From: Acidobacteria bacterium 13_1_20CM_3_53_8
GTDB lineage: Bacteria > Acidobacteriota > Blastocatellia > Pyrinomonadales > Pyrinomonadaceae
Length of the DNA: 52,984 nt
Assembly (NCBI GenBank): GCA_001920415.1
Contig: MNJR01000050.1
Span: forward strand, 1 to 52,984
Reading direction: 5' to 3'
Shown here: one piece after another, positions 7,264 through 50,518 of the stretch
How the letters are laid out: each line of letters opens with the position of its first letter
Position numbering within the stretch: the stretch's first letter is position 1
Position numbers and translations under genes: made by a program
The notes under the pieces: generated by a model
Databases searched by the model: none
Seen by the model: the letters and a program-made list of their open reading frames with translations, nothing else
Told to the model about the DNA's origin: nothing

Positions 7264-7374
7264 AAGTAAAAAGTCAAAAGGTAAAAGGCAAAAGGAAGGC
7301 GGAAACCATTCTTTCAATTAAAATGCTTTTGTCCGCACTTTTGCCTTTTGCCTTTTACCTTTTGACTTTTACTT
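7264..7374. repeat. heptad-arm hairpin, family A (AAAAGGY word)
   Basis: The left arm 7264-7294 (AAAAGTC/AAAAGGT/AAAAGGC units) pairs with the right arm 7338-7374. The loop, together with the start of the right arm (7317-7356), is identical over 40 bases to the reverse complement of the hairpin at 9291-9420, so the two are copies. It lies between the DUF58 gene, whose stop codon (7369-7371) is inside the right arm, and the BatA-like start. Confidence 0.92.
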
Positions 7375-8253: not shown

Positions 8254-8258
8254 AAAGG

Positions 8259-8360
8259 CAGTTTACAGTTTTTAGTTTTCAGTTTTCAGTTAGTTGATTA
8301 TCAGCAAAGCTCGTAGCTTTTTCTTGAAACTAAAAACTGAAAACTAAAAACTGTAAACTG
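8259..8360. repeat. heptad-arm hairpin, family B (AGTTTTC word)
   Basis: The left arm 8259-8292 (CAGTTTACAGTTTTTAGTTT...) pairs with 8327-8360 over about 34 bases, nearly perfect. The loop of 34 bases contains AGCAAAGCTCGTAGCTTT. It fills the spacer between the VWFA gene (stop at 8366) and the DUF58 start at 8253. Confidence 0.92.
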
Positions 8361-8365
8361 TTCTT

Positions 8366-9430
8366 TCATCTTGCGAAGTATCCTCTTTTCGCTCTCGCTT
8401 GCAGTTCAGGGCGTCCCTTTATTCTCACCGTAACGTCGCGCCAAGAGCCGTCGCGCCGGTTGTTTGTTGGGCGGTAGCCTATGCTGTAAACAGTGCCCAG
8501 GTCGTATATCACCTGCTTGTAAACCGTCTTCAAATCTTCTAGGCGCGATGCTTTGTAGAACAGGCTACCGCTTTCTTGGGCCAACTGCGCGAGTTGTTGA
8601 CGCGCCAAGGCGTAAGCCGACGGCGGCACGTTGTACTTCTTGACAATCTCGCTCTCCGTGTCCAGATAGATGGGAAGCACTATGGCGTCGGAACGGCCAA
8701 CCGTCTTAAGCAACTCGTCGAAACTCATGCGCGAGCCTTCGCCGCGAACGTCAGGCAGTGCGTTATCAACTCCGTCGGTCATGGCTATGATCGCTGTGCG
8801 GCGCACGCGCTGTGTCTCGCGGTCAACGACGGCGCGCAGCACGTAATCGAGCGCGTCCCAAAAATTAGTCCCGCCAAGCGGATGCTCAATCATGCTAATC
8901 CGCTGTTTGAGCGCGTTGCGGTCTGTGGTCAGAGGCGAGATCAGCACGGCCACATCCGTGAAAGTGACTACGGCTATGCGATCATTTGGGCGCGCGGCTT
9001 TTACGAAACGGAGCGCGCTCTTTTTCACCAGACTCAATTTCTTGCCGGTCGAGCCGGAGAGGTCTAGCAGTAGCACAAGATCGAAAGGCGCTTCGGCTGA
9101 GGCAAAGAAGCTTATCTGTTGCGGCTGGCCGTTCTCGTAGACCGCGAAATCTTCCTCTCTGAGCGCGCCGATTGCTCGTGAAGATTCCCGGCTGATGACG
9201 CTCACGTTCAAGTTAACCAGATCGGTGTCAACGCGAACGGTATCCACAACCTCGTCCGAAGGCTGTGGCCGAGGCTGCGCACGAACTGATAAGGCAAAAG
9301 TAAAAAGGCAAAGGAAAGGCAAAAGTAAAAAGGCAAAAGGCAAAAGTGCGGACAAAAGCATTTTAATAAAAGATGGTTTCCGCTTACCTTTTACCTTTTT
9401 ACTTTTTACTTTTGCCTTTTCAGTTTGCAT
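8366..9430 (-). CDS. VWFA-related (acidobacterial type) secreted protein, hairpin-derived signal peptide
   Basis: 354 residues. The mature part has the acidobacterial VWFA-related architecture: VDTDLVNLNVSVI, then EEDFAVYENGQPQQI, then a VWA domain with metal site DLSGS (D123, S125, S127) and the end YSIGYRPTN...KRGYFAR. It is a tandem paralogue of the next upstream gene, and the ATG at 9428-9430 overlaps that gene's stop by 11 bases. The first about 52 residues are encoded by a family A hairpin: a Lys-rich n-region (KAKVKSKKVKGKRK) from one arm and a Leu/Phe-rich core (LLPFAFLLLPFLCLFTFALS) from the other, followed by SVRAQ as a likely cleavage site. An internal ATG at 9359-9361 is an alternative start. 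Opening the frame to 9589 would overlap the upstream gene and is unlikely. Confidence 0.88.
   Translation of the reverse strand: MQTEKAKVKSKKVKGKRKPSFIKMLLSALLPFAFLLLPFLCLFTFALSVRAQPRPQPSDEVVDTVRVDTDLVNLNVSVISRESSRAIGALREEDFAVYENGQPQQISFFASAEAPFDLVLLLDLSGSTGKKLSLVKKSALRFVKAARPNDRIAVVTFTDVAVLISPLTTDRNALKQRISMIEHPLGGTNFWDALDYVLRAVVDRETQRVRRTAIIAMTDGVDNALPDVRGEGSRMSFDELLKTVGRSDAIVLPIYLDTESEIVKKYNVPPSAYALARQQLAQLAQESGSLFYKASRLEDLKTVYKQVIYDLGTVYSIGYRPTNNRRDGSWRDVTVRIKGRPELQARAKRGYFAR
9291..9420. repeat. heptad-arm hairpin, family A, inside a coding region
   Basis: The left arm 9291-9346 and right arm 9387-9420 carry the AAAAGGC/AAAAGTA word. The loop is the reverse complement of the one at 7264-7374. 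Both arms and the loop are translated in the minus-strand gene 8366-9430. No stop codon interrupts the reading frame through about 130 bases. Confidence 0.92.
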
Positions 9431-11159
9431 AGTAGCCGCGTTTGCCACGCGCCACGGCATTCGGTTTTGATACCACAACATGTATAGAGCGCCAGCGGCG
9501 GTCGCGCGTTTTATTCGTCGGGGTGTACGAGAGACTATACACAGTGCCGAGGTCTGCGACAACGCGCTCGTATACTCCGGCCAGATCATTCAAGCTCTCG
9601 ACTTCGTAAAAAATTCCGCCGCCAGCGTCGGCCACTTCCTTCATGCGGTCATGCGCCAGATCGAAAGTCTCGTCCTGAACATCCAATTCGCTCAAAGGCT
9701 CGTATGTTGTGTCTAGCCAGAGCGAGTAGATGACCCCGTCGAACTCGCGCACGCGCGCGAGCAATTCCTGGTAATCAATCGCAGAGCCTTCGCCCTCTAC
9801 ATTCGGCAACACGCTGTCCAGCCCGTCGCTCATCAGCACAATCGCGTTGCGCCGAAAATTTCCGGCATCCCGCGTCACTTCATTAATCGTTGACGCGAGC
9901 GCGTCGTAGAGCTTGGTGCTGCCCTTCGGTTGTTCGATTGAGTTGATTGAAGCGCGCAAGGCTGCGCGGTCGTTTGTGAGGCGCGAGACGATGACGGGCG
10001 TGTTGGCAAAAGTGATTATTGCTATGCTGTCGCCTGCGCGCGCGGCATTTACGAAACGAAGCGCAGCGCCCTTGATTAAATTCACGACCTCGCGCGTCGA
10101 GCCGGAAAGGTCAATCAGAAGCACAAGATTGAAAGGCGCTGCGGAAGATTCAAAGCGCGTAATCTGCTGCTCCGCGCCATCTTCGTACAGCTTGAAATCA
10201 TTCTGCGTCAGCCCAGTCAATCCACGATTCGTGCTTCGGTCAATCACGCTCATGTTCACAGTCACAAGTTGCGTGTCCACACGAATCACGTCGCCCTCGT
10301 CAACCTCCTGCGGCGCGCCCGTGTCGTTCGCAGGCGTGCCCGCGCCGTGCGTCTGCTGGTTGCTTCCGATTAACTCAGGCGGGCGGCGCGTTTCCTGTGG
10401 CGGCGGAACTTGCGTCTGCGAAATTTGAGGCGCGGGCGATTGAGTAGGATTCTGAATCTGCGCGGCTGAATCTTGTACGTTCCCACTTGGCGCAACCCGT
10501 TCATTACGCGAAGGCGTCCCGGCGCCGGCGAGCACTATACGACCGAGCCGCGTGTTCAGGCGAACATTTTTTGTTCCCGCGCCGATGCGCGCCTGATACA
10601 GCCTTTCGGGAAAGCGGCTGCGCGCAGGAGAAGCAAGCTCAGAGGGCGATAGCGTAGATTCGATAGCGCGCGACAACGATTCCGCAGTGATGTTTGCATC
10701 GCTGGCTGTTGGAATCTCCGCGCGAATATCTCCAGAAACAGTCTGCGCATTTAGCTCGGCAGGCAATCCGTTTATTTCCACTTTGCCACTTACGGTTGAA
10801 ACTTCTACGCGCGAGCGTTCGGGAATTTTTAGAATCAAGTTAATGCGCGCAAGTGTGCCCAATGGCGCGCGTGTGATGCTGACGTTGAGTTGCTGCTCTG
10901 TTCTTTGAATAACGACAGGAGAACGTACAGGCTGAGCGCCTTCAATCGTCGTAGAGATGGAAACGTACTGTTCGTCCCAGACCTCTATCTTCACATTGCC
11001 CCTGGAATTCTCAACGCGCAGCGCGCCCGTCGAAGGCAGATCAGCGCGTATGCCCTCATCAGAAGCAAGGCAAAAGGAGAAAGGTAAAAGGCAAAAAAGT
11101 GAGACCAACGCAACCGAGCACGCTTGTTTAATTCTTCCCAGTGCCCTAGCCATCTTCAC
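9420..11159 (-). CDS. VWFA-related secreted protein with N-terminal DUF4097-like beta region
   Basis: 579 residues. The signal peptide has an n-region with KMARALGRIK and a core LVSLFCLLPFSFCLA, whose second half is encoded by a hairpin arm (11066-11099). Residues about 40-160 form repeating beta strands (RVENSRGNVKIEVWDEQYV, EVSTVSGKVEINGL) like the DUF4097 adhesin-like fold. A Pro/Gln linker follows. The C-terminal half is VWFA-related with metal site DLSGS and ends KRGYYAN, closely parallel to the downstream paralogue. The start is GTG (11157-11159), with ATG two codons later; AAGG lies 5 bases upstream of the GTG, within the hairpin's other arm. Confidence 0.88.
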   Translation of the reverse strand: MKMARALGRIKQACSVALVSLFCLLPFSFCLASDEGIRADLPSTGALRVENSRGNVKIEVWDEQYVSISTTIEGAQPVRSPVVIQRTEQQLNVSITRAPLGTLARINLILKIPERSRVEVSTVSGKVEINGLPAELNAQTVSGDIRAEIPTASDANITAESLSRAIESTLSPSELASPARSRFPERLYQARIGAGTKNVRLNTRLGRIVLAGAGTPSRNERVAPSGNVQDSAAQIQNPTQSPAPQISQTQVPPPQETRRPPELIGSNQQTHGAGTPANDTGAPQEVDEGDVIRVDTQLVTVNMSVIDRSTNRGLTGLTQNDFKLYEDGAEQQITRFESSAAPFNLVLLIDLSGSTREVVNLIKGAALRFVNAARAGDSIAIITFANTPVIVSRLTNDRAALRASINSIEQPKGSTKLYDALASTINEVTRDAGNFRRNAIVLMSDGLDSVLPNVEGEGSAIDYQELLARVREFDGVIYSLWLDTTYEPLSELDVQDETFDLAHDRMKEVADAGGGIFYEVESLNDLAGVYERVVADLGTVYSLSYTPTNKTRDRRWRSIHVVVSKPNAVARGKRGYYAN

Positions 11160-11191
11160 TTTTACCTTTTTCCTTTTTCCTTTTACCTTTG
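11066..11191. repeat. heptad-arm hairpin, family A, spanning a gene junction
   Basis: The left arm 11066-11099 pairs with 11157-11191. On the minus strand the right arm carries the stop codon of the MoxR gene (11183-11185) and the ribosome-binding region of the VWFA gene; the left arm encodes part of its signal peptide. The 57-base loop holds the first codons. Confidence 0.9.
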
Positions 11192-13445: not shown

Positions 13446-13450
13446 AAGAA

Positions 13451-13519
13451 CAGTGATGAGTGATGAGTGATGAGTGATAAGAGGAGAATGCTTTTCTCAT
13501 CACTTATCACTCATCACTG
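13451..13519. repeat. heptad-arm hairpin, family C1 (GTGATGA word)
   Basis: The left arm 13451-13480 is four tandem copies of GTGATGA/GTGATAA. The right arm 13494-13519 is the complement (ATCACTTATCACTCATCACTG). The 13-base loop contains TGCTTTTC. It fills the spacer between the DUF4159 stop and the PilT start. Confidence 0.92.
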
Positions 13520-13523
13520 CTTT

Positions 13524-14737: not shown

Positions 14738-14740
14738 AGA

Positions 14741-14815
14741 GGTAAATAGTTAATGGTAAATGGTGAATGGAAAAACCGCTTTCTTCCATTCACCATTTAC
14801 TATTTACCATTCACC
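14741..14815. repeat. heptad-arm hairpin, family F (GGTAAAT word)
   Basis: The left arm 14741-14771 (TAAATAG, TTAATGG, TAAATGG, TGAATGG units) pairs with 14784-14815. The 12-base loop contains ACCGCTTTC. It sits between convergent genes and touches both: the stop codon of the minus-strand phosphatase begins at the last base of the right arm. Confidence 0.92.
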
Positions 14816-16116
14816 TAGTTCGCTTTTATGACAAAGAACGTTATGTCATCGGTCGCGCCCTGCCCGTCAGTCCAGTCGAGCATGTCGCGGTGTATGAAAT
14901 CAATCAAGTCGCGCGACTTCAGATGACGCCCTTTCCTCACAGCTTCAGCCAACCGTTCGCGCCCATACTCTTCAGCCTTTGAATTTTCCGCTTCCGTCAC
15001 TCCGTCCGTGTATAGCACGAGCGTCTGTCCCGGCTCTATGGAAAGATAGTATTCGTAGTAGCGCGTGTCCCTGAACATGCCTAGCGGCAGTCCGCCTCGC
15101 TCTATGAAACGAGCCTCGCCGTTTGCGTCCATCAGAAGTGGCGGGTTGTGCCCGGCGTTCGCGTAAGCAAGCGTTCTGTTAGAGGCGTCCAGAATTCCGT
15201 AAAAGGCCGTAACAAACTGGTTGCGCTCGATTGATTCCCAGAGCAGATAGTTCACCTTGGACATGGAGATGTGCGGCGCATAGCCTATGTGCGTCGCCGC
15301 GCGTATAGAAGCGCGCAAGAAAGCCATCAGCAATGCTGCGGGCACGCCTTTGCCAGACACATCCGCGATTACTAATCCGATCTGGTCATCGTAAATCCGC
15401 ACCCAGTCGTAGTAATCGCCCGAAACCTCTTCGGTCGAGAAGTTGTAAGCCGAAATATCGAAGCCATCAAGATGCGGGTCGTCAGCGGGAAGCAGTTCCA
15501 ACTGCACCTGGCGTGCTACCTCCAACTGCGCTTCCAATCGCCGCTTCTGCATCATCTGCTCGTGCAGCATCACCTTCTCAATGATGATAGCCACTTGAGA
15601 CGCTAACAACATCAGCACTTCAAGATCGTCCGCGTCATATGCGTTTACTTGATCGCTCTCAAGATCGAAGACGCCTATGACCTCTTCGTTCGAGATAATC
15701 GGCGCGGTCATCTCCGAGCGGGTTTCGGGTCGCGCGTTGCAATAGCGCGAATCCTTCTGCACGTCCGGCGAGATTATAGGCTCGCCCGTGAGCGCCACGC
15801 GGCCAATGATTCCCTCGCCCATCTTAAGCCGCAGCGTCTTCAACTCCTCAATGTCGTACCCGCGCACGGCCTCGCCGTGAAAAATGGTCGTTTCGCTCGT
15901 AGCGCAGTCCGCGCTCTTGTCGCACTTGATGATATAGATGCCTGCGGCATCGTATGGAACGAGCGAGCCGAGCGTGTCCATCACTTGATTGAGGACTTCC
16001 TGCATATCAAGCGAGCGGCTGATTTTTTTAGTGATGTCCAGAAGCATCCGCAGCTTGTCAACGATTGACAACTCCGCAGCGTTCGGCATCACAGCTTCTT
16101 TTACGTTCTCTGCCAT
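14815..16116 (-). CDS. GAF domain - SpoIIE/PP2C serine phosphatase (RsbU-like)
   Basis: 433 residues. A GAF domain spans about 20-185 (SLVPYDAAGIYIIK, GEGIIGRVALTGEPII, VIGVFDLESDQVNAYD). A short coiled-coil linker (RRLEAQLEVARQVQLELLP) is typical of this architecture. A SpoIIE-type PP2C domain spans about 210-430 with GDYYDW, LVIADVSGKGVPAALLMAF and LYTDGVTEAEN. Such proteins dephosphorylate STAS-domain anti-sigma antagonists in partner-switching modules. A candidate substrate, the STAS protein at 32212-32571, is 16 kb away, so a direct link is only possible. Cytoplasmic, no membrane segment. Confidence 0.92.
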   Translation of the reverse strand: MAENVKEAVMPNAAELSIVDKLRMLLDITKKISRSLDMQEVLNQVMDTLGSLVPYDAAGIYIIKCDKSADCATSETTIFHGEAVRGYDIEELKTLRLKMGEGIIGRVALTGEPIISPDVQKDSRYCNARPETRSEMTAPIISNEEVIGVFDLESDQVNAYDADDLEVLMLLASQVAIIIEKVMLHEQMMQKRRLEAQLEVARQVQLELLPADDPHLDGFDISAYNFSTEEVSGDYYDWVRIYDDQIGLVIADVSGKGVPAALLMAFLRASIRAATHIGYAPHISMSKVNYLLWESIERNQFVTAFYGILDASNRTLAYANAGHNPPLLMDANGEARFIERGGLPLGMFRDTRYYEYYLSIEPGQTLVLYTDGVTEAENSKAEEYGRERLAEAVRKGRHLKSRDLIDFIHRDMLDWTDGQGATDDITFFVIKAN

Positions 16117-19168: not shown

Positions 19169-20908
19169 ATGATGAATGCCATTTATTCACAGCGTTTCCT
19201 GATTACGTCATCTGCCATATTGATTCTGGCAGTGCTTCTCAGCTTTCATTCAGATTCGGTCTCCGCACGAAAGTCTGACAATGGTGCTACGACCAGCCCT
19301 CTCCTCGTCACGAAGACTAATGGCAAGATAGCTTTTTCAACCGCGCGCGACGGCAACTCCGAAATATATTCTATGAATGCGGACGGGAGCGTTCAGACCA
19401 GACTCACAAACAACGCAGCATTTGACGGAGACCCCGCATGGTCGCCCGACGGCACGCGCATAGCTTTCACTAGCACGCGCGACGGTAACGAAGAGATTTA
19501 CGTGATGAATGCAGACGGGAGCAATCTGAAGCGACTTACAAACAACACTGCTCTTGACCGCACGCCCGCGTGGTCGCCTGACGGAGCACAGATTGCTTTC
19601 GCCAGTACGCGCGATTCAAGCAATTTCAATATCTTCGTGATGGATGCGGACGGCAGCCGCCAGACAGATATTTCCAATAGCACAGCAGCCGATTATCAAG
19701 AGCCTGACTGGTCGCCGGATGGTACGAAGATTGTTTGCAGTCAGGCGATTATTCAGAACGGGACGTTGGGCCTTTACGGAGTTCTGTTAATGAACGCCGA
19801 TGGAAGCAATCAGACCAGACTCAGCAATGCTGGCAACAGAGACATCAATCCGCGCTGGTCGCCCGACGGAACACGTATAGTTTTCAGCAGCGACAGGTCT
19901 GGAAATCCAGGCGTCTTCGAAATATTCGTGATGACGGCTTCGGGCAGCAATCAAACCAGACTCACCAACAATTCCGGCGAGAACAGTCGCCCCTTCTGGT
20001 CGCCCGACGGAGCGCGTATAGCGTTTCAGAGCAACCAGAGATTCAGTTTCGACATTTACTTGATGAACACGGACGGCTCAGGCCAGACGAGAATCACAGG
20101 TGATTTTACAGATGAATTTCAGCCAGTATGGCAATCAGTCTCAACAACCACGACGAACCCTATTGACGATCCGCAACTCTTCGTGCGCCGACACTATCTG
20201 GATTTCCTCAACCGCGAACCTGACGCCGCAGGATTGGTCTACTGGACTGGACGAATCACAGAGTGCGGCTCGGACGCGGCCTGCATCACGCGCCGTCGCG
20301 CAGAAGTCTCCGCAGCATTCTTCATAGAAGCAGAGTTCCAGCAAACAGGCTTCTTCATCTACCGTCTCTACGCGGCATCCTTCTGCCGCCGTCCGACTTT
20401 CGCAGAATACACCGCAGACCGAAGCACGTTGATCGCAGGCGCGAATCTTGAAACCACCAAACAAGCTTTCACCCAAACGTTCGTACAGCGCACCGAGTTT
20501 ATTCAAAAATACCCGCTCACCCTGAACGGCACAGCCTTCGTTGACGCACTGCTCGCAACCATACGAGGCTGCAACGGATTAGACCTCACGGCCAACCGCG
20601 CAAACCTTATAGCCGAATACAACAGCATCACCGACCAGACGCAGGCACGCGCCCGCGTCCTACGTCTCGTCGTGGATAACGCTGCCTATCAACAGGCCGA
20701 ATTCAACAAAGCGTTCGTCCTCGCAGCCTACTTCGGATATTTAAGGCGTGACCCCGACGAAGCTGGCTATCAATTCTGGCTTGGCGTCCTGAACAACCGC
20801 ATCCCCGGCAACTTCCTGGCAATGGTCTGCGCCTTCATCACCTCAGATGAATATCAACGAAGATTCAGCCCCGTCATCACACATTCCAACGCCGAGTGCA
20901 GATTTTAA
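19169..20908 (+). CDS. secreted TolB-like (PD40 repeat) protein with C-terminal DUF4214
   Basis: 579 residues from ATG 19169. A signal peptide ([20 protein letters not shown], then VSA) is followed by about six PD40 beta-propeller repeats with the recurring core [17 protein letters not shown] and IYVMNADGS. The C-terminal about 220 residues are DUF4214-like ([18 protein letters not shown]; later [18 protein letters not shown]), with four conserved Cys. PD40 propellers bind proteins or peptidoglycan-associated partners; DUF4214 is a bacterial extracellular domain of unknown role. The plus-strand frame is open 33 codons further upstream, but the signal peptide fixes the start at 19169 or 19172. 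Convergent with the toxin gene, with 15 bases between stops. Confidence 0.88.
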
Positions 20909-24481: not shown

Positions 24482-24586
24482 GAGCGACGCGGAGACACGG
24501 AGACGCGGCGACCGAGGAGAGAAAAAAATCGAGTCTAAGCTCTCTCTTTTTCGCCGTGTCCCCGCGTCTCCCCTTCTCCGCGTCTC
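24482..24586. repeat. octad-arm hairpin, family H (GAGACGCG word)
   Basis: The left arm 24482-24513 repeats GACGCGGA/GACACGGA and the right arm 24551-24586 the complement (TCGCCGTGTCCCCGCGTCTC). The period is 8 here rather than 7. It begins 5 bases after the SWIM-Rad52 stop codon and ends 15 bases before the next start. Confidence 0.88.
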
Positions 24587-25261: not shown

Positions 25262-25339
25262 CAGTTTTTAGTTTTCAGTTTTCAGTTAAAAGCATGTCGC
25301 TCTTCTTTCTGAAAACTGAAAACTAAAAACTGAAAACTG
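25262..25339. repeat. heptad-arm hairpin, family B
   Basis: The left arm 25262-25287 and right arm 25309-25339 are made of AGTTTTC/AGTTTTT. The loop AAAGCATGTCGCTCTTCTTT is nearly identical to the loops at 46830-46845 and 47233-47249. Between the terminator and the VOC gene. Confidence 0.93.
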
Positions 25340-25863: not shown

Positions 25864-25980
25864 GCGAGCTTAAGTATTTCCCTTTGCGCCTTTGCGAGAA
25901 ACTGCAATTCTATTCACTCTTAAGATTCATGTGAATTGATGGTTCACGCAAAGGCGCAAAGATAAAAGATAAGCTCGCTA
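25864..25980. repeat. inverted repeat, family L (GCAAAGG word)
   Basis: The left arm 25864-25896 (GCGAGCTTAAG...CCTTTGCGCCTTTGCG) pairs with 25947-25980 (CGCAAAGGCGCAAAGATAAA...AAGCTCGC). The 50-base loop holds TTCAC...GTGAA. It is the only structure seen in 25770-26098. Confidence 0.82.
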
Positions 25981-26587: not shown

Positions 26588-26699
26588 AAGGAAAAAGGTA
26601 AAAGGCAAAAGGGATAAGGATGAAGAGAGAGCTATTACTCTTTCTCTAAATCTGTAAAAGTGGTTTTCGGCCTTCCTTTTTCCTTTTGCCTTTTGCCTT
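26586..26699. repeat. heptad-arm hairpin, family A
   Basis: The left arm 26586-26612 (AAAAGGAAAAAGGTAAAAGG...) pairs with 26671-26699. An inner small stem (GAGAGAGCT...CTCTTTCTC) lies in the 58-base loop, which ends in AAGTGGTTTTCGG. The first A of the left arm follows the NTF2-like stop directly. Confidence 0.92.
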
Positions 26700-27432: not shown

Positions 27433-27484
27433 AGTTCAACCGTTTCAAAGATAAAGCCCATAGCCAGAACAGGAGCGAATAAAA

Positions 27485-27559
27485 TATCCACTAAACCACA
27501 CGAAGCAACACGAATTTCACGTGGCTCGTTTCGTGTTACTTCGTGTGGTTTAGTGGATA
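27485..27559. repeat. inverted repeat, family G (CACACGAAG word), between convergent genes
   Basis: 30-base arms (27485-27514 and 27530-27559) with one mismatch and a 15-base loop. The arm repeats CACGAAG-like units (TCCACTAAACCACACGAAGC...). Could act as a bidirectional terminator between the hydrolase and the S41 protease genes, though without a T-run. Confidence 0.93.
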
Positions 27560-27611
27560 ATTCTCTTTCGTCTTTCTCTCTTACGTCGAACTCACGTTAA
27601 GTTGCTCGTCT

Positions 27612-29342: not shown

Positions 29343-29467
29343 AACTATGAACCTCTGAAGATAAGACCGATGAATCAAAAAGATTGACCAACACGACTCA
29401 GGATTTTCGCCAATTTGCCGTGTTCCGAATAGTAACGGATGCCGCGCAGGCGGGCAAGGTTGCAAAG

Positions 29468-29555
29468 AAAGTAAAAAGTCAAAAGGTAAAAGGCAAAAGT
29501 GAAGAAGGTTGAATCCCTTCCTAACTTTTGCCTTTTTACTTTTACCTTTTGACTT
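29468..29555. repeat. heptad-arm hairpin, family A
   Basis: The left arm 29468-29499 (AAAGTAAAAAGTCAAAAGGT...) pairs with 29525-29555. The loop is 25 bases. It lies between the ABC exporter stop (29559) and the S41 protease. Confidence 0.93.
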
Positions 29556-29558
29556 CCT

Positions 29559-31598
29559 TCATCCTTTTTGTACTGCTGGCATTCGTCCCATCATGGGCGG
29601 CATTGCGGGGGGCTTGGGCTGGCGCGTGCGCAGGAGCGCGGGGTCAACGTTCTTGAGTTCGAAGAGAGTTTTGTAGAGACCTTCGCGCGCTATCAACTGG
29701 TCGTGTGTTCCTTCGTCAACCACTTTTCCTTGATTGAGCACGAGTATGCGGTCGGCTACAGAGGCTACGAAGTTGAGGTCGTGGCTGATGACCAGACAGG
29801 TCTTGCGGTTTTCGGGTTTCTGCGCGTACTCGCGTATGACGCTTATCAGGCGATTGCGCTGGTCTGCGTCCAGATTTTCCGTAGGCTCGTCTAGCAATAG
29901 AATCTCAGGCTCTCTCAACAGGCATCGCGCCAAAGCTATGAGCCGTTTTTGTCCGCCTGAAGGAACAGAAACGTCAACGATGGTGTCGTAACCTTTCGGC
30001 ATTCTTTCCGGGTCAACAATCACGTCGTGTATGTGCGCCTGCTTGCACGCCGCTTCGATTTCATCATCGCTTGCGCCCTCTTTTCCCAATCGGATGTTTT
30101 CACGAATTGTGTCTTTAAGGAAGAAAGGAAACTGCGAGAGCTTCGAGACCTGCTCGCGCAGTGAATTCAAAGTCACTTCGGAGATGTCCTGACCTTCCAA
30201 AATTATTCGCCCGCTTTCAGGATCAAGAAAGCGCAGTATCAAATTCATTACGGTGGTCTTGCCGCACCCGATTGGCCCTACGAAGGCTATGGTCTCGCCC
30301 TCTTTGATCTTGAAAGATATGCCGTTCAGAATTTTCTGCGTGGGCGAATAGCCAAAGACTATGTTATCGAAAGCGATGTCGCCATGAATCTCGCCCATGT
30401 CGCGCGCGTCGGGCTTTTCTACAACGCTAGGTTTTGTATCAAGCAACTCATAAGTCGCAACCACATTCGGCACAAGCGATTGGTACATAGTATAAGTTGC
30501 AATCAATCTCTGCACGACGCCGAACATCTGCGGCGTCATCTGCACGAACGCTATGATGGCGGCGAGCGTCAATCCGAAATTCGAGTGGTAGATGATGCCT
30601 ACGACGAGGACTAGCACGCTGCTCAAGGCTATGAAAATTTGCGAGCCGCTGTTGCTGAAACCCATCCAGGCCATCATCCCTACGCTGTGTTTGGCTGCTT
30701 CGCGCGACGCCACGCGGAATCTCTCGCTGCGCTTCTGTTGCGCGTTGAAGACCTGTATATCTGAAATCCCGCTTATAGTCTCTTCCAGTTCCCCGCCAAG
30801 CTCGCGACCGCTCATAGCCATGCCCTTCGCTGCCTGCTGCATGCGGCTGCTTGTGTAACGAAACATCAGCAGCACGAACGGCGCGAGCGCGAACGCAACC
30901 AGCGTCATCTGCCAACTGAGCAGGAAGAAATAGGCTAGCACGACCACCAGCACCACAACATCAACGAGCGGGTAGAGCATAGCCTGCGTCAACAACCTCT
31001 GCACACCCTGCGCTTCGGACAGCACGCGCTGCATGAGCGCGCCCGTCTGTCCGCCAGTGAAAAAGTCCAGCGAGAGCGATTGAAGATGATCGTAAAGATT
31101 CTGTCGTAAGCTGGTGAGCAGACGCTCTTCCAGGTGCGCGACGACCCACGAGCGCAAGAATGCAAGCATCTGCGAAAGGACAAGCGCGGCGGCCCAGATA
31201 ATTAGAACTGTACGCAATGACAGAGGCGCGGCTATCCATCCAAGTCCGTGCTGTTGAAGCCAGACCGGATCGGCTTTGCCAAACAACGGCGCGGACAAAT
31301 CCCATATGCTCCCGGTCGCAGCCGGAGCGCGCCCGCCCGCCAGCCCCGCAGGTCTTCCCGCTAGCGGGCCTAGAATCTGAAAGATTGCCGCGAAGGTCAC
31401 GCTGACGACGAAAGGCGCTAGGGTGACCAGAAGCGATAGAAACATGGCGAGCGCAGTCAAACTCTTCTGCGCTCCCAAAAGCCTGAGCGCACGACCCAGG
31501 TAGGGGCGCGCGCTCATACGCCCGGCTGGCATACCGGGCCTGCCCTGTAAACCCGCAGGACGAAACTGCCCCGCAGGCGGTGCTGGCATACTAGACAT
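29559..31598 (-). CDS. ABC exporter, fused permease-ATPase
   Basis: 679 residues. A Pro/Gly/Met-rich N-terminus is followed by a six-segment type-1 exporter permease (LTALAMFLSLLVTLAPFVVS; LVDVVVLVVVLAYFFLLSW) and a nucleotide-binding domain: Walker A GPIGCGKTT, signature PSGGQ (Pro instead of Leu), Walker B ILLLDEPTENLD, H-loop VISHD. No C39 peptidase domain, so it would not cleave a leader itself. The gene starts 170 bases after the Cys/aromatic-rich peptide gene on the same strand; the exporter-precursor pairing is inference from this. I chose ATG 31596-31598; the frame is open to 31685 through hairpin sequence. Confidence 0.88.
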   Translation of the reverse strand: MSSMPAPPAGQFRPAGLQGRPGMPAGRMSARPYLGRALRLLGAQKSLTALAMFLSLLVTLAPFVVSVTFAAIFQILGPLAGRPAGLAGGRAPAATGSIWDLSAPLFGKADPVWLQQHGLGWIAAPLSLRTVLIIWAAALVLSQMLAFLRSWVVAHLEERLLTSLRQNLYDHLQSLSLDFFTGGQTGALMQRVLSEAQGVQRLLTQAMLYPLVDVVVLVVVLAYFFLLSWQMTLVAFALAPFVLLMFRYTSSRMQQAAKGMAMSGRELGGELEETISGISDIQVFNAQQKRSERFRVASREAAKHSVGMMAWMGFSNSGSQIFIALSSVLVLVVGIIYHSNFGLTLAAIIAFVQMTPQMFGVVQRLIATYTMYQSLVPNVVATYELLDTKPSVVEKPDARDMGEIHGDIAFDNIVFGYSPTQKILNGISFKIKEGETIAFVGPIGCGKTTVMNLILRFLDPESGRIILEGQDISEVTLNSLREQVSKLSQFPFFLKDTIRENIRLGKEGASDDEIEAACKQAHIHDVIVDPERMPKGYDTIVDVSVPSGGQKRLIALARCLLREPEILLLDEPTENLDADQRNRLISVIREYAQKPENRKTCLVISHDLNFVASVADRILVLNQGKVVDEGTHDQLIAREGLYKTLFELKNVDPALLRTRQPKPPAMPPMMGRMPAVQKG

Positions 31599-31600
31599 AT

Positions 31601-31763
31601 GATTAAGGGATGAGGGCGAAGGGATGAGGGATGAAAGAAGGACAAAGGGATGAAGGATGAAAGAGTAATTGATAGATTGGTTCATTTACTCATTGAATCA
31701 ATGAACCAATGAGTCAATGAATCAATCCTTCTTATTCATCCCTCATCCCTCATCCCTCATCCT
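31601..31763. repeat. nested hairpin, families C2 (GGATGAG word) and Q (ATTGATTC word)
   Basis: The outer arms 31618-31661 (repeats of GGATGAG/GGATGAA) and 31734-31763 enclose an inner palindrome 31671-31696/31698-31727 (TTGGTTCATT...AATGAACCAA). It fills the space between the precursor-like peptide gene and the ABC exporter. Nested repeats suggest that one hairpin inserted into the loop of another. Confidence 0.88.
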
Positions 31764-32702: not shown

Positions 32703-32866
32703 GAGACGCGGGGACACGGTGAAAGAAGAAAGTAAAAAGGTAAAAGGTAAAAGGCAAAAGTAAGGATGAAACCGGATTTAATAAAAAGATTGGCTTCCCC
32801 TAACTTTTTACTTTTACCTTTTGCCTTCTTCGCCCACGTCTCCGCGTCTCCGTGTCCCCGCGTCCC
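32703..32866. repeat. nested hairpin: family A inside family H
   Basis: The outer arms 32703-32728 (GAGACGCGGGGACACGGTG) and 32837-32866 (CACGTCTCCGCGTCTCCGTG...) enclose a complete family A hairpin (32729-32760 with 32804-32828; loop AAGGATGAAACCGGATTTAA...). In 32572-33003 this is the only structure; the rest appears unremarkable apart from the ribosome-binding region of the next gene. Confidence 0.9.
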
Positions 32867-33459: not shown

Positions 33460-33580
33460 GATTTTAGATTTTGGATTTTGGATTTTGGATTGGAATGATG
33501 AATCAAGCGTGAAGTTAAAACTCACGCTTGAGAGTCTCTCAACCAATTAATCCAAAATCGGCAATCTAAAATCCAAAATC
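33460..33580. repeat. heptad-arm hairpin, family D (GGATTTT word)
   Basis: The left arm 33460-33493 is five tandem GGATTTT/AGATTTT units; the right arm 33543-33580 the complement. A second hairpin in the loop (CAAGCGTGA...TCACGCTTG, about 33504-33530) makes it two-tiered. It fills the gap before the M16 gene start at 33599. Confidence 0.92.
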
Positions 33581-35138: not shown

Positions 35139-36968
35139 ATGCCCCACGTTTCAGAAAAATTGTTTCGCGCCAGAGCGCTCGCGGCCTGTGCGCTTCTGCT
35201 TCCCATTTTCATGCAAAATGTTTCGGCTCAAACCATGACACAAACTCAAACAGAAGATTTCCGACGCCCCGCGCCACAACCTCTGCCGACGAAGCCGCTC
35301 AACATACCGACGCCGTTTGAGACCAGCTTATCAAACGGCCTTCGCGTCGTCGTAGTTGAAGATCACCGCCTGCCTCTGGTCAGTTTCAGACTCGCGTTCC
35401 GAACCGGAAACTCAAACGATCCGGGCAACCTGAACGGCCTGACTTCTATTATGACAGGGCTTCTGACTGAAGGGACGGAGCATCGCAACAGCAAGCAACT
35501 AGCCGACGAGGTTGCGCGAATCGGTGCGACGCTCACAGCAGGCGCGAGCGCGGATTACACTACGGTCGCAGCGAGCGCGCTTGCAAACTTTTCCGGCGAG
35601 ATACTTGACTTGCTCGCAGACGTTACGCTCCATCCTTCGTTTCCCGAAAACGAATTGGAGCTTGTGAAGCAGAACACCAAGCAGGTCATCTTGCAGCAAC
35701 ACGCGCAGCCATCGTTTCTCGCCAACGAACGTCTCTCGCAGATTATCTTCGGCCAGCATCCATACGCGCACATAGCGCCTACGAATGAATCCGTTGACGC
35801 AATCTCGCGCGCAAGCCTTATGAGCTTTCATCGTCTGACGTTCGTGCCCAACAACGCCGTGCTCATCGTCGTGGGTGACGTTCAGCACGAAGCGATTGTG
35901 CGCCGCGTGGGCGAACTGTTCGGAGCTTGGGCCAAGGGGCAAACGGTCGCGCAGAACTTCCCCGCCCTGCCCGCGCGAACGGAGCGCGCCGCATACATTG
36001 TTGACCGCCCAGGCTCTGCTCAATCGAACATTGTTATCGCTAATACATCTATCACGCGCACGAACCCGGACTATTTTCCCATGCTCGTCATGCACCAGGT
36101 TCTAGGCGCTAGCGCTTCGTCGCGCCTCTTTATGAATCTGCGCGAGGCGAAGGGTTACACCTACGGCGCTTACTCGAATCTGGACGCGCGACGCAGCGCA
36201 GGAACTTTCCGCGAGACAGCCGAAGTGCGAACGCCTGTGACGGGCGCATCGCTCAAAGAGTTCTTCTACGAACTCGACCGCATACGCAACGACGCAGTGC
36301 CGCAGGAAGAGATTGATAATGCGAAGGCTTATCTAACAGGAGTTTTTCCTATCAGGATAGAGACGCAGGAAGGGTTGATTGACCAGTTAGTGCAGATAAA
36401 AATGTTAGACTTGCCCGCAGACTTCCTTCAGACCTACCGCGAGCGAGTCAGCGCAGTCACAGCCGCAGACATTCAACGCGTCGCGCGCCAGTACGTTCAG
36501 CCAGACCGCGTTGCCATAGTCATAGTAGGCGACGCTGCGACCATAATGGATCAGGTCAAACCTTACGCGCAGACCATTGAGCTTTACGACACGGCTGGCA
36601 ATCGTAAACCAGCGAGCACAAACGGAAATGGTTCTGCAACAGGCGGAGCGCCCGCGAACATCAACGGCGCATGGACGCTGCAAGTCACAGGCTCCGGCGG
36701 CCAGAACATTCCTGCCACGCTCACCATCAACCAGAGCGGCAGCAACTTCACAGGATTGGTCAAGGCTTCCATTGGCAATTTGCCCGTTAGCGACGGCACA
36801 ATCAACGGCAACCAATTCGACGCCGCCATAACCATAAGCATGCAGGGACAGAACTTCCCCGGGCGCGTCGCCGGACGAGTCGAGAACGATCACCTCACCG
36901 GCACAATCACCATACAAATCCCCAACGCTCCCGCGCTATCTTTCACTGGCACAAGAGAGCAGCGATAA
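35139..36968 (+). CDS. M16 family peptidase, non-catalytic subunit with beta-rich C-terminal domain
   Basis: 609 residues from ATG 35139 (AGGAG 11 bases upstream). Signal peptide: KLFRARALAACALLLPIFMQ, then NVSAQ. The M16 fold has GLTSIMTGLLTEGTEH in place of HxxEH, so the zinc site is lost, as in the inactive partner of heterodimeric M16 enzymes. LREAKGYTYGAYSNLDARR is the usual second-half signature. The C-terminal about 110 residues form a separate Gly/Asn-rich beta domain (INGAWTLQVTGSGGQNIPAT). The frame is open upstream to 34854 but overlaps the first subunit; the signal peptide decides. Its TAA lies inside the left arm of the following hairpin. Confidence 0.9.
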   Translation: MPHVSEKLFRARALAACALLLPIFMQNVSAQTMTQTQTEDFRRPAPQPLPTKPLNIPTPFETSLSNGLRVVVVEDHRLPLVSFRLAFRTGNSNDPGNLNGLTSIMTGLLTEGTEHRNSKQLADEVARIGATLTAGASADYTTVAASALANFSGEILDLLADVTLHPSFPENELELVKQNTKQVILQQHAQPSFLANERLSQIIFGQHPYAHIAPTNESVDAISRASLMSFHRLTFVPNNAVLIVVGDVQHEAIVRRVGELFGAWAKGQTVAQNFPALPARTERAAYIVDRPGSAQSNIVIANTSITRTNPDYFPMLVMHQVLGASASSRLFMNLREAKGYTYGAYSNLDARRSAGTFRETAEVRTPVTGASLKEFFYELDRIRNDAVPQEEIDNAKAYLTGVFPIRIETQEGLIDQLVQIKMLDLPADFLQTYRERVSAVTAADIQRVARQYVQPDRVAIVIVGDAATIMDQVKPYAQTIELYDTAGNRKPASTNGNGSATGGAPANINGAWTLQVTGSGGQNIPATLTINQSGSNFTGLVKASIGNLPVSDGTINGNQFDAAITISMQGQNFPGRVAGRVENDHLTGTITIQIPNAPALSFTGTREQR

Positions 36969-37067
36969 AAGCAGTTTTCAGTTTTCAGTTTTAAGTTTTC
37001 AGCAAGAAGAGCGAACCGGCTATTGCTGAAAACTTAAAACTGAAAACTGAAAACTGCTTTTATCGCT
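36961..37067. repeat. heptad-arm hairpin, family B, with perfect 45-base arms
   Basis: Arms 36961-37005 and 37023-37067 are exactly complementary over 45 bases with a 17-base loop. The arm begins AGCGATAAAAGCAGTTTTCA; the TAA within it is the stop codon of the M16 gene. The loop contains the reverse of the CGCTCTTC loop word of the other family B copies. Confidence 0.95.
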
Positions 37068-40243: not shown

Positions 40244-40377
40244 ATAAGAAGGGGGAAAAGTTGAAAGGGGTAAAAGGGTAAAGGGGTAAGAGGGGAAAAG
40301 GAAGAAGCAATAGAAGGCAACTAGCTTTACGCCTTTACCCATTTCCCCTCTTACCCTTTTACCCTTCTTATTCATCC
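40239..40377. repeat. heptad-arm hairpin, family A' (GGGTAAA word), asymmetric arms
   Basis: The left arm 40239-40299 and right arm 40342-40377. The left arm carries about 25 extra bases of the same word, as if the tandem units had expanded on one side only. The TGA of the CoA-ligase gene (40241-40243) is in the left arm; the Ycf48-like stop is 8 bases after the right arm. Confidence 0.9.
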
Positions 40378-43865: not shown

Positions 43866-43999
43866 AGGAGTTACGCAGTTGACAGGAAAGTGCAGCAAAA
43901 GTCAGTACCGCCTGCGGTAGCGGGCGGGTAGTTGCCGCATCTAAGACCCGCCCGCTACCGCAGGCGGTACTGACACGCTCGTTCAACTGCGTAACTCCT
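43866..43999. repeat. nested inverted repeat, family K, perfect 28-base inner stem
   Basis: The outer arms AGGAGTTACGCAGTTGA (43866-43882) and its complement (43983-43999) are perfect; the inner arms 43901-43928 and 43947-43974 are perfect over 28 bases (GTCAGTACCGCCTGCGGTAG...). Unlike other families the inner arm is not a heptad repeat. It lies between divergent genes (43747-44121), a region with no gene. Confidence 0.95.
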
Positions 44000-45815: not shown

Positions 45816-45960
45816 AAAAAGTAAAAAGGCAAAGGAAAGGCAAAAGGTAAAAGGAAAAAGGAAGGCTGAGACCGCTTTATCAGATTAAGTAAAGAGTAAT
45901 AGAACTGTTTTTTATCCTTATCACTTTTTCTTTTTACCTTTTTCCTTTTGCCTTTTTACT
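45816..45960. repeat. heptad-arm hairpin, family A
   Basis: The left arm 45816-45862 (AAAAAGTAAAAAGGCAAAGG...) pairs with 45923-45960. The loop, 60 bases, contains ACCGCTTTATCAG. The stop codon of the XdhC gene (45956-45958) is within the right arm. Confidence 0.92.
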
Positions 45961-46788: not shown

Positions 46789-46865
46789 AGAGCAGTTTTC
46801 AGTTTTCAGTTTTTAGTTTTCAGTAAAAGCTTTTCGCTCTTCTTTCTTAAAACTGAAAACTGCTC
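46789..46865. repeat. heptad-arm hairpin, family B, unequal arms
   Basis: The left arm 46789-46829 is longer than the right arm 46846-46865 by about two heptad units. Loop TTTTCGCTCTTCTTTC. Between DUF962 and XdhC. Confidence 0.92.
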
Positions 46866-46875
46866 TTTCATGCGC

Positions 46876-47175: not shown

Positions 47176-47201
47176 ATCAACCTCCAAAAGCAGCGACGAG
47201 A

Positions 47202-47282
47202 AACAGTTTTCAGTTTTCAGTTTTCAGTAAAAGCATTTCGCTCTTCTTTCTGAAAACTGAAAACTTAAAACTTAAAACTGTT
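47202..47282. repeat. heptad-arm hairpin, family B
   Basis: Arms 47202-47234 and 47250-47282 are made of AGTTTTC units. Loop ATTTCGCTCTTCTTTC. The stop codon of the upstream XdhC N-domain gene (47272-47274) is inside the right arm. Confidence 0.93.
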
Positions 47283-47622
47283 CCTTGTCACTTCCTGTCT
47301 CCCACACATCAATAAAAATCTCCATGGTGCCGCCGCAGACCATTCCTTCTTCGCTGGCTTCGTCTGCGGTCAGGCTGAAATGATGAAGTGCGGACTTTCC
47401 TGTTCGCATGGCTTCGCGCGCTTCAGCCCAGACTTCGGCTTCAATGCAGCCGCCGCCGACCGTGCCAGCCGTCGCGCCGTTTGCTAAAAAGAGCATCTTC
47501 GCGCCGCGCCGTTGCGGTGTAGAGCCGCGCGTGTGCGCGACCGTAGCCACAACCACGCGTTCGCCGCGACCGTTGGCCTCAGCTATCAAACTATAAAGCT
47601 CGTTCTGCGCAATTGTTCCCAT
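47272..47622 (-). CDS. XdhC N-terminal (CoxI) domain protein, stand-alone
   Basis: 116 residues. The CoxI-type domain alone: VVVATVAHTRGSTPQRRGAK, then AGTVGGGCIEAEVWAEAREA, then GMVCGGTMEIFID. The STPxxxGAxM and GTVGGGCxEAEV motifs and the Cys in MVCGG are intact, but the Rossmann half is absent; it may work with the Rossmann-containing protein at 45956-46774, making a split XdhC. I chose ATG 47622; the frame is open 18 codons upstream through the following hairpin. The last codons (DKEQF and stop) lie in hairpin 47202-47282. Confidence 0.85.
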   Translation of the reverse strand: MGTIAQNELYSLIAEANGRGERVVVATVAHTRGSTPQRRGAKMLFLANGATAGTVGGGCIEAEVWAEAREAMRTGKSALHHFSLTADEASEEGMVCGGTMEIFIDVWETGSDKEQF

Positions 47623-47632
47623 CTGAAAAGCA

Positions 47633-47721
47633 GGGATGAGGGCGGAGGGATGAGGGATGAAAGTGTAATTACTCATGTTGAATAGCTATTCTTCATCCCT
47701 CATCCCTCCGCCCTCATCCCT
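47633..47721. repeat. heptad-arm hairpin, family C2 (GGATGAG word)
   Basis: Arms 47633-47660 and 47693-47720 are perfect over 28 bases (GGGATGAGGGCGGAGGGATG...). Loop about 32 bases with an inner ATAGCTAT. It stands between the M28 peptidase and the XdhC N-domain gene and is in frame with the rejected N-terminal extension of the latter. Confidence 0.94.
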
Positions 47722-50451: not shown

Positions 50452-50518
50452 AAAAGTCTGGAGTCTGGAGTCAGAAGAAGAAAAGCTTTTTGCCTTTGAC
50501 TCCAGACTCCAGACTTTT
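50452..50518. repeat. heptad-arm hairpin, family I (GTCTGGA word)
   Basis: Arms 50452-50473 (AAAAGTCTGGAGTCTGGAGT...) and 50497-50518 are perfect over 22 bases. Loop GAAGAAGAAAAGCTTTTTGC. The nadC stop begins 4 bases after it. Confidence 0.93.

Follow-up and report, generated by a model that had tools for sequence, protein, structure and literature searches.

On contig MNJR01000050.1 of Acidobacteria bacterium 13_1_20CM_3_53_8 (Pyrinomonadaceae), two minus-strand genes, one DUF4159 and the other pilT-like, are separated by a 78-bp spacer (13446-13523) that is filled by a hairpin whose arms are tandem repeats of the heptamer GTGATGA; as RNA, this spacer is predicted to fold at -38.1 kcal/mol (z -8.4). 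The stretch analyzed (C110:1-52984, hereafter the window, 52,984 bp in full) belongs to a genome of 6.10 Mb in 155 contigs (95.9% complete) and contains 25 hairpins, in 15 of which the 5' arm shows a significant period of 7 or 14; the window has no match to any RNA family of Rfam at gathering score. Hairpins of this kind, built on many different seven-base words, recur in the spacers of this genome and of its relatives, and their structure, distribution and possible origin are the subject of this work.

A Period of Seven Common to Many Words

A gapless scan (stem score at least 16, loop at most 120) of 835,171 bp, or 13.7% of the genome, yielded 325 hairpins. A first-pass annotation of the window had expected the autocorrelation of hairpin arms to peak sharply at seven, and the arms match themselves at lag 7 in 0.606 of positions, as against 0.336 after shuffling, with further high values at lags 14 (0.591) and 21 (0.545) and a smaller peak at lag 8 (0.408); the period-7 enrichment on which that claim depended is present, and the claim stands. 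The best period is 7 or 14 in 153 arms, 8 or 16 in 18 and 10 in four, and no threshold is passed in the remaining 150, part of which belong to other dispersed families. The first ten stretches (233 kb) contain 106 hairpins and their order-2 Markov surrogates none, and random segments of equal length show a period of 7 in 2 of 201 cases. Tandem arrays searched irrespective of pairing number 314 for period 7, 33 for period 8, seven for period 6, two for period 4, one each for periods 9 and 12, and none for periods 5, 10 and 11, with the required score growing with the period, so that periods above seven are held to a slightly stricter standard. Since this pairing-blind search shows the same peak, the peak is not produced by the selection of hairpins. 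The 153 period-7 hairpins span 49-156 bp (median 90), with arms of 17-54 bp (median 29). Stop codons in all three frames, considered as a reason for a period indivisible by 3, occur in 22% of 5' arms, 16% of 3' arms and 9% of shuffled arms, a weak effect, and this candidate was set aside.

The words of these 153 hairpins fall into the families AGTTTTC (36), AAAAGGC with its variants (34), GATTTTG (26), GGTAAAT (15), AGTCTGG (14), GTGATGA (12), GGGATGA (3) and GTTTCAA (3), with 10 others; a GGG run occurs in only one of the eight named families, GGGATGA, and not in AGTTTTC, AAAAGGC, GATTTTG, GGTAAAT, AGTCTGG, GTGATGA or GTTTCAA. Samples from 14 further genera of the family (384 kb) gave 48 hairpins, 14 of them with a period of 7 or 14, at densities of 0-3.6 hairpins per 10 kb, 3 of the 14 samples being without any; their words include AGTAGGC, CGATGAA, AATGATG and TAGTAGT, and GTCAGAT and GGTCAGG are found in named bins. 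Taken together, the present genome and the family DNA provide 55 consensus words in 256 hairpins, a set that includes family hairpins fetched by the AGTTTTC search itself, and the notion of one period common to many words is borne out, also across genera. The description of these words as unrelated fares less well: they are connected by 60 one-substitution links, compared with 23.2 +- 4.5 (maximum 36) for letter-shuffled words, even if some links are variant spellings of one degenerate array. As far as the sequences go, this speaks for the drift of related words over their independent invention.

Fixed Polarity, Mirrored Arms and Recurrent Loops

Each word has a fixed polarity, and this is a firm observation. 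For none of the 153 period-7 hairpins of the genome does the consensus word recur as its exact reverse complement in the 5' arm of another, and in a family set of 119 genomes from 29 genera the AGTTTTC-loop-GAAAACT pattern has 303 matches in 13 genomes (196 of them in the present one, with neighboring registers counted repeatedly), whereas the reversed pattern has a single match in one genome and none in the present one. The 5' arm contains more G than C in 150 of the 153 hairpins and as much in the other three. The exceptions in the family are three C-richer words (4 of 256 hairpins), and AAACCTG and AGGTTTC form one pair of opposite polarity. Counted by word cluster, 6 of 10 are G-rich, one is C-rich and three are equal (p 0.125), so that few independent origins may lie behind the G-rich 5' arm; a G-rich side common to all words is therefore suggestive. 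An excess of G in the 5' arm is also seen in the 150 period-less hairpins (90 with more G, 47 with more C, 13 equal) and in 14 of the 18 hairpins of period 8 or 16.

The two arms of a hairpin share their irregularities. Deviations from the consensus word of the 5' arm occur in either arm at 597 positions, and at 353 of these the same change is present in both arms. In the 145 of 153 hairpins with at least three units, arm identity is 0.943, compared with 0.860 when units are shuffled and 0.849 in the best register displaced by +-7, and the true register beats the best displaced one in 115 of the 145. Loops recur as well. The 9-mer AAAGCTTTT is present in 24 of 153 loops, across four word families, and the next commonest 9-mers listed in 6-12 loops, against at most three for any 9-mer in shuffled loops; AAAAGGC hairpins have loops of their own, with GAAACCA in 12 of 34. 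Among the matches listed for relatives, G006 carries an identical loop at C196:24331 and C217:17108, and G012 and G014 have, by eye, recurrent loops of their own. The conserved loops proposed initially are borne out in part, as a recurrent 9-mer and not as a universal loop.

Location Relative to Genes

Period-7 hairpins are almost confined to spacers, with 2 of 153 lying within a called gene (gene calls come from a simple purpose-made caller and their start sites are uncertain). Among spacers of at least 60 bp, such hairpins occupy 116 of 324 between co-directional genes, 11 of 55 between convergent and 16 of 61 between divergent ones (co-directional vs. convergent, p 0.02; vs. divergent, p 0.19). 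Spacers with only other hairpins follow a different order, being commonest between convergent genes (29 of 55, compared with 71 of 324 co-directional and 21 of 61 divergent). The hairpin starts close to the upstream stop codon, at -20 to +15 relative to it, in 88 of the 116 co-directional cases (median +5), and in some hairpins the stop codon lies within the first unit; the median distance of the 116 to the next predicted start is 27.

Three signs of a role tied to the gene or its transcript were sought in this arrangement. Stem mismatches on the gene-sense strand comprise 54 G.U, 54 A.C and 78 other pairs, showing no preference for G.U and hence no signal of RNA-level selection via wobble pairs, although this is a weak test for long stems. 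The apical core does not hold a fixed orientation to the genes, with five sense and 13 antisense among the 18 of 116 hairpins that could be scored (98 unscored). Lastly, avoidance of Shine-Dalgarno sequences was discarded, as a Shine-Dalgarno-like motif is present in 39 of 148 cases with a hairpin and 92 of 327 without one (p 0.74). A function in mRNA is possible, because many hairpins lie between co-directional genes and the one spacer folded as RNA has a strong predicted structure.

Orthologous Spacers

The spacer between the DUF4159 and pilT-like genes illustrates how these hairpins vary among relatives. In G057, which represents a different genus, the spacer carries a GTGATRA hairpin that differs in length and loop; in G012 the hairpin there has period 7 and the words GCAGAAT/CCAGAAT; and in G028, from another family of the class, it measures about 30 bases and holds no hairpin. 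Conserved gene pairs were compared in 53 cases (55 minus two from a duplicate locus): both genomes have a period-7 hairpin in seven of them, only the present genome in 11, only the relative in five and neither genome in 30. The relatives belong to other genera, with a protein identity of 54-84%, and are too distant to define insertion borders; many of their loci were picked for an AGTTTTC hairpin, so that AGTTTTC is over-represented among them. The word differs in six of the seven doubly occupied spacers, as expected if the period is kept while the word changes, and agrees in one (AGTTTTC); the DUF4159/pilT-like spacer of G057 is one further comparison, with the same word as here. Where the present genome has spacers of 133-134 bp with a hairpin, hairpin-less relatives show hit-to-hit gaps of 14 and 38 bp, and in the reverse case a spacer of 3 bp corresponds to one of 96 bp with a hairpin in the relative.

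Heptamer Arrays in Other Groups

In named records, the AGTTTTC hairpin was found at 74 loci, 58 of them in bins called Pyrinomonadaceae, Chloracidobacterium or Acidobacteria. The 16 loci outside these bins come from Flavobacterium (7), Prevotellaceae (3) and, with one each, Bacteroidales, Planctomycetota, Pirellulales, Ardenticatenaceae, Opitutaceae and Alloalcanivorax. Cyanobacterial plasmids, in stretches picked for containing an AAAAGGC match, carry AAAAGGC/AAAAGTA arrays too. A comparison with the heptamer loci of cyanobacteria had been proposed at the outset; it shows heptamer arrays on these plasmids and reveals a real difference in that they are mostly unpaired. Of the 19 period-7 arrays on the first four plasmid stretches (200 kb), 15 lack a partner, and the hairpin scan of these stretches found 15 hairpins, none of period 7, whereas 256 of 349 arrays in the present genome form inverted pairs. 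A search for SpoIIE against plasmids returned no cyanobacterial record among the best 60 of 362 matches. On four of the plasmid stretches (L209, L210, L211 and L213), several AAAAGGC/AAAAGTA arrays lie within some 4-8 nt of a start or stop codon of cas1, csx3 or an adjacent gene in type III-B clustered regularly interspaced short palindromic repeat (CRISPR) loci.

The G-rich strand of the arrays points outward in the present genome at 123 of 144 stop sides and 95 of 99 start sides, in the family set at 64 of 107 and 37 of 65, and on the cyanobacterial plasmids (492 kb) at 7 of 10 and 10 of 12. Where an array is the arm of a hairpin, this outward rule merely follows from the hairpin. Arrays of the present genome classed as single also point outward (26 of 31 and 15 of 15), but many are hairpin arms with a sub-threshold partner and hence not independent, which leaves the cyanobacterial arrays as the only largely unpaired sample for the rule.

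Transposases and Other Palindromes

Four Y1 proteins were detected in the genome, three of which are of IS200/IS605 type above cut-off. The fourth, of 169 residues (L064:1396-1905, minus strand), scores 25.6 bits with the model of the repetitive extragenic palindrome (REP)-associated tyrosine transposase (RAYT), for which the cut-off is 80, and 22.6 with that of IS200. On either side of its gene, 15 and 10 bp away, lie GTCAGTACCGCCTGCGGTAGCGGGCGGGT palindromes, which belong to the non-heptamer GTCAGTACC family and give a REP/RAYT-like arrangement (L064:1288-2010, G000:C23), and the genome may well harbor a REP/RAYT pair; the heptamer hairpins are not the visible partner of this RAYT-like gene. 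The arm word of the palindromes, GTCAGTACCGCC, occurs 38 times in 835 kb, on both strands, and further members of the GTCAGTACC family lie at window 43901-43974, L013:18857, L014:4050, L015:16206 and L027:11041. No heptamer hairpin flanks the other three Y1 genes; one of them, of IS200 type, has a heptamer hairpin at a distance of 0.97 kb. The window also contains, at 25877-25966 and 27482-27562, members of two further dispersed palindromic families, CTTTGCGCCTTTGCGTGAA and TCCACTAAA..CACACGAA, which have many copies in L013-L029.

Discussion

Heptamer hairpins are known from earlier work in Xanthomonas and in the trnL intron of Nostoc, and the present ones are a variant of them; their inverted pairing, put forward in the first-pass annotation as an additional feature, had already been published for both. 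In Xanthomonas, arrays of the heptamer GGGAATC are reported to form 70 and 75 convergent inverted pairs in two genomes, to lie between aligned open reading frames (ORFs) and rarely between divergent ones, at an average of 28 nt from the 5' ORF, with the G-rich strand as sense after stop codons and as antisense before start codons (Rehm et al., 2015, PMC4692102). The Acidobacteriota hairpins likewise are inverted pairs of tandem heptamers in a fixed convergent orientation, and they too prefer aligned ORFs, with significance against convergent but not divergent spacers, and the side of the stop codon. On the other hand, the G-tracts of at least three needed for G-quadruplexes are found here, among the eight named families, only in GGGATGA, and where Xanthomonas has one G-quadruplex-capable word, the present genome has at least seven word families, with most arrays paired. 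Many words, mostly without G-tracts, mean that G-quadruplexes cannot be the common reason for such arrays. Furthermore, for 83% of the Xanthomonas repeats a close relative is stated to carry a counterpart in matching gene surroundings (PMC4692102), compared with 7 of 18 here, where the relatives belong to other genera.

In Nostoc, for which the same account mentions few inverted heptamer pairs (PMC4692102), the P6b stem of the trnL (UAA) group I intron is described as built from seven-base repeats of class TDNGATT or NNTGAGT, one class repeatedly replacing the other wholesale (PMC4476775, PMC3488679). The likeness lies in a heptamer-built hairpin stem with different words at the same site; the difference is that P6b is a single intron site serving the intron RNA, not a genome-wide intergenic family. 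The TAACTGA repeats of the Beggiatoaceae, reported as direct arrays with one indirect repeat (MacGregor, 2015, PMC4679880), are also tandem heptamers, intergenic and near genes. As for other classes of repeat, the short tandemly repeated repetitive (STRR) sequences are heptanucleotide tandem repeats of filamentous cyanobacteria. The present arrays resemble them in being degenerate, intergenic and heptanucleotide, and differ from the cyanobacterial plasmid arrays in being mostly paired. A literature search, which left out most subscription papers, found no report of heptamer hairpins in Acidobacteriota. What the present hairpins add is one polarity per word, placement at stop codons, mirrored unit variants, recurrent loops, and a changed word or no hairpin at orthologous spacers.

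The reading with the most support, to which we give about an even chance, is that these hairpins are short dispersed elements that multiply as whole hairpins, are kept nearly only between genes, and have arms that evolve in concert by sevens. Whole hairpins would be copied to new spacers within the genome and would survive mainly in spacers, above all between co-directional genes. Their arrays would change through the gain, loss and spread of whole seven-base units, with slippage in sevens and arm-to-arm copying presumably keeping them uniform, and the arms would remain complementary through arm-to-arm copying during replication or repair, or through whole-hairpin copying; period, pairing and polarity would be passed on while the word drifts. 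Several lines of evidence point this way. Among them are the unit variants mirrored in both arms, the gain or loss suggested by spacers that are long with a hairpin and short without one, and the rarity of hairpins within called genes. Random local inverted duplication of arrays would yield both polarities, and the fixed polarity of each word hence favors an element. Loops that recur within genomes suggest that whole hairpins are copied, and probably move as units, within each genome, and the same apex under different arms suggests that arms are exchanged or drift around a core. Moreover, given the one-substitution chains among the words, drift of the word may go together with inheritance of period, polarity and pairing. 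Selection on the period itself, which the first-pass annotation had suggested, as one option beside a copying mechanism, from the apparent lack of relation among words, would then be unnecessary.

Other observations weigh against such an element. In the 11 comparisons where only the present genome has a hairpin, the gap in the relative is not short (median 150 bp vs. 181 bp here), and the relative has a period-7 hairpin in 7 of 18 spacers where the present genome has one and in 5 of 35 elsewhere (p 0.08), so that some spacers may be favored sites, unlike what plain random insertion would produce. No mobility enzyme is tied to the heptamer hairpins, the RAYT-like gene being flanked by a non-heptamer palindrome; mirrored variants were measured on hairpins found via pairing, which biases toward mirroring; and the mostly single AAAAGGC arrays of cyanobacteria are left unexplained by an element consisting of a whole hairpin.

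Foremost among the alternatives, although we consider it rather unlikely, is selection at the RNA level for intercistronic structures, such as double-stranded mRNA processing sites or translation insulators between stop and start. The preference for co-directional over convergent spacers, opposite to that of other hairpins, the clustering at upstream stop codons and the predicted fold of the spacer at 13446-13523 would all be natural under such selection, as would the report that the majority of Xanthomonas heptamer repeats are transcribed (PMC4692102). Yet the equal numbers of G.U and A.C mismatches look as if RNA were not the selected form, although long stems make this test a weak one; the apical core leans, in the few hairpins scored, to the antisense orientation; the preference over divergent spacers is not significant; and orthologous spacers are often without a hairpin. 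It is less probable still, and in our view improbable, that the arrays are primarily single units, each placed at the end of a gene with the G-richer strand outward, two head-to-head arrays of one word then mimicking a hairpin. The outward orientation in the present genome, the family and the mostly single cyanobacterial arrays agrees with this, and the same rule has been given for GGGAATC and GGGGA(C/T)T (PMC4692102). The order of units is, however, mirrored between the arms, which are hence not independent; most arrays of the genome are in inverted pairs, and its "single" arrays (e.g., window 13452, 14786 and 33460) are often hairpin arms with a sub-threshold partner. Furthermore, the rule is trivial for hairpin arms, and the cyanobacterial numbers that would carry it are small and come from stretches picked by their AAAAGGC match.

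Both remaining alternatives invoke a specific enzyme. REP sequences are located next to stop codons, and the heptamer hairpins share this position with them, together with being extragenic, palindromic and of high copy number. That they are REP sequences moved by a RAYT is nonetheless very improbable: the best candidate favors the RAYT over the IS200 model by a few bits and, like every Y1 protein of the genome, falls short of the RAYT cut-off; palindromes of the GTCAGTACC family, not heptamer hairpins, flank it; the other three Y1 genes have none beside them; and, unlike in REP/RAYT systems, the arms are tandem heptamers of changing word. A telomerase-like reverse transcriptase that extends broken 3' ends in spacers by templated heptamers, two such ends then being joined head to head, would account for the outward polarity, the same word on both sides and the empty orthologous spacers. 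We give this origin next to no credence and set it aside, since the genome, 95.9% complete, yields no match to the RVT_1 reverse transcriptase, and since the mirrored order of variants would call for fold-back or for one shared template carrying the same variants.

The reason for the dominance of heptamers among long bacterial repeats has been a question since at least 2007 (cited in PMC4679880, PMC4692102). Most genomes are said to have heptamers as their commonest category of long repeat (Mrazek, 2007, cited in PMC4679880), and a proposal cited in the same article (PMC4679880) is that seven possibly corresponds to the stretch of DNA contacting the polymerase. Hundreds of hairpins with many words, mostly without GGG, separate the period from the sequence and from G-quadruplex formation, and the replacement of words at orthologous spacers, together with a polarity broken once in about 300 pattern matches, strongly constrains any copying mechanism. 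It is conceivable, if a distant prospect, that a rule independent of word and of G-quadruplexes holds across phyla, namely a step of seven with the G-richer strand outward a few bases from stop or start codons, of which hairpins would be the paired form. If so, a shared polymerizing process working from gene borders and copying in sevens would underlie the STRR sequences, the Xanthomonas repeats, Nostoc P6b and the present elements. Close strains make the question of the seven-base preference testable.

Hairpins and Other Repeats of the Window

The hairpins of the window with heptamer arms, and their period-8 relatives, are listed in Table 1. Of the 14 heptamer sites named in the first-pass annotation, 13 have a period-7 array on each side according to Tandem Repeats Finder (TRF); at 46789 it detects the left array only. 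The sequences at the named sites read as claimed, with small corrections at 13451, 33460, 36961, 46789 and 32703. At 13451, given as four copies of GTGATGA, three units are exact and the fourth is GTGATAA; the five copies of GGATTTT at 33460 are actually about 4.7 units of GATTTTR; the AGTTTTC arms at 36961 and 46789 are present but also take in non-repeat flanks; and the period-8 word at 32703 is present but adjoins a period-7 hairpin (32737).

Table 1. Coordinates of heptamer-armed hairpins and related period-8 repeats in the window.
Feature	Positions	Details	Source
GTGATGA hairpin	13451..13519	arms CAGTGATGAGTGATGAGTGATGAG and its reverse complement (one mismatch), loop 21	
AAAAGGC/T/AAAAGTC-armed hairpin	7269..7370		hairpin scan, TRF
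AGTTTTC-armed hairpin	8259..8360	fills spacer 8254-8365	hairpin scan, sequence reading
AAAAGGC-armed hairpin	9315..9419		TRF, hairpin scan
AAAAGGC-armed hairpin	11067..11189		TRF, hairpin scan
GGTAAAT/GGTGAAT-armed hairpin	14740..14816	orthologous G057 spacer with AAAAGGT-type hairpin	hairpin scan
AGTTTTC-armed hairpin	25262..25332		TRF, hairpin scan
AAAAGGC/T-armed hairpin	26595..26699		TRF, hairpin scan
AAAAGTC/AAAAGGT-armed hairpin	29465..29559		TRF, hairpin scan
GGGATGA-armed hairpin	31608..31762	under cut-off for counts; both heptamer arrays detected	TRF
AAAAGGT-armed hairpin	32737..32827	period-8 GACGCGGN repeats on its flanks	TRF, hairpin scan
GATTTTG-armed hairpin	33460..33580		TRF, hairpin scan
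AGTTTTC-armed hairpin	36961..37067	perfect 45-bp arms including non-repeat foot; period under cut-off	
AAAAGGC/T/A-armed hairpin	45836..45955		TRF, hairpin scan
AGTTTTC-armed hairpin	46789..46866	non-repeat foot puts period under cut-off	
AGTTTTC-armed hairpin	47195..47289		TRF, hairpin scan
GGGATGA/GGGCGGA-armed hairpin	47632..47721	perfect 30-bp arms, odd unit mirrored	
AGTCTGG-armed hairpin	50452..50518		TRF, hairpin scan
Period-8 relative	24486..24586	GACGCGGA array 24486-24512 and CCGCGTCT array 24554-24586	TRF
Period-8/16 relative, AAAAGGGG/T-armed hairpin	40274..40366		TRF, hairpin scan

Inverted period-8 arrays (GACGCGGN, AAAAGGGG) extend over window 24486-24586, 32703-32866 and 40249-40370. 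Lastly, a 132-bp tandem duplication of 1.8 copies lies at window 19373-19614, within the called ORF 19169-20908.
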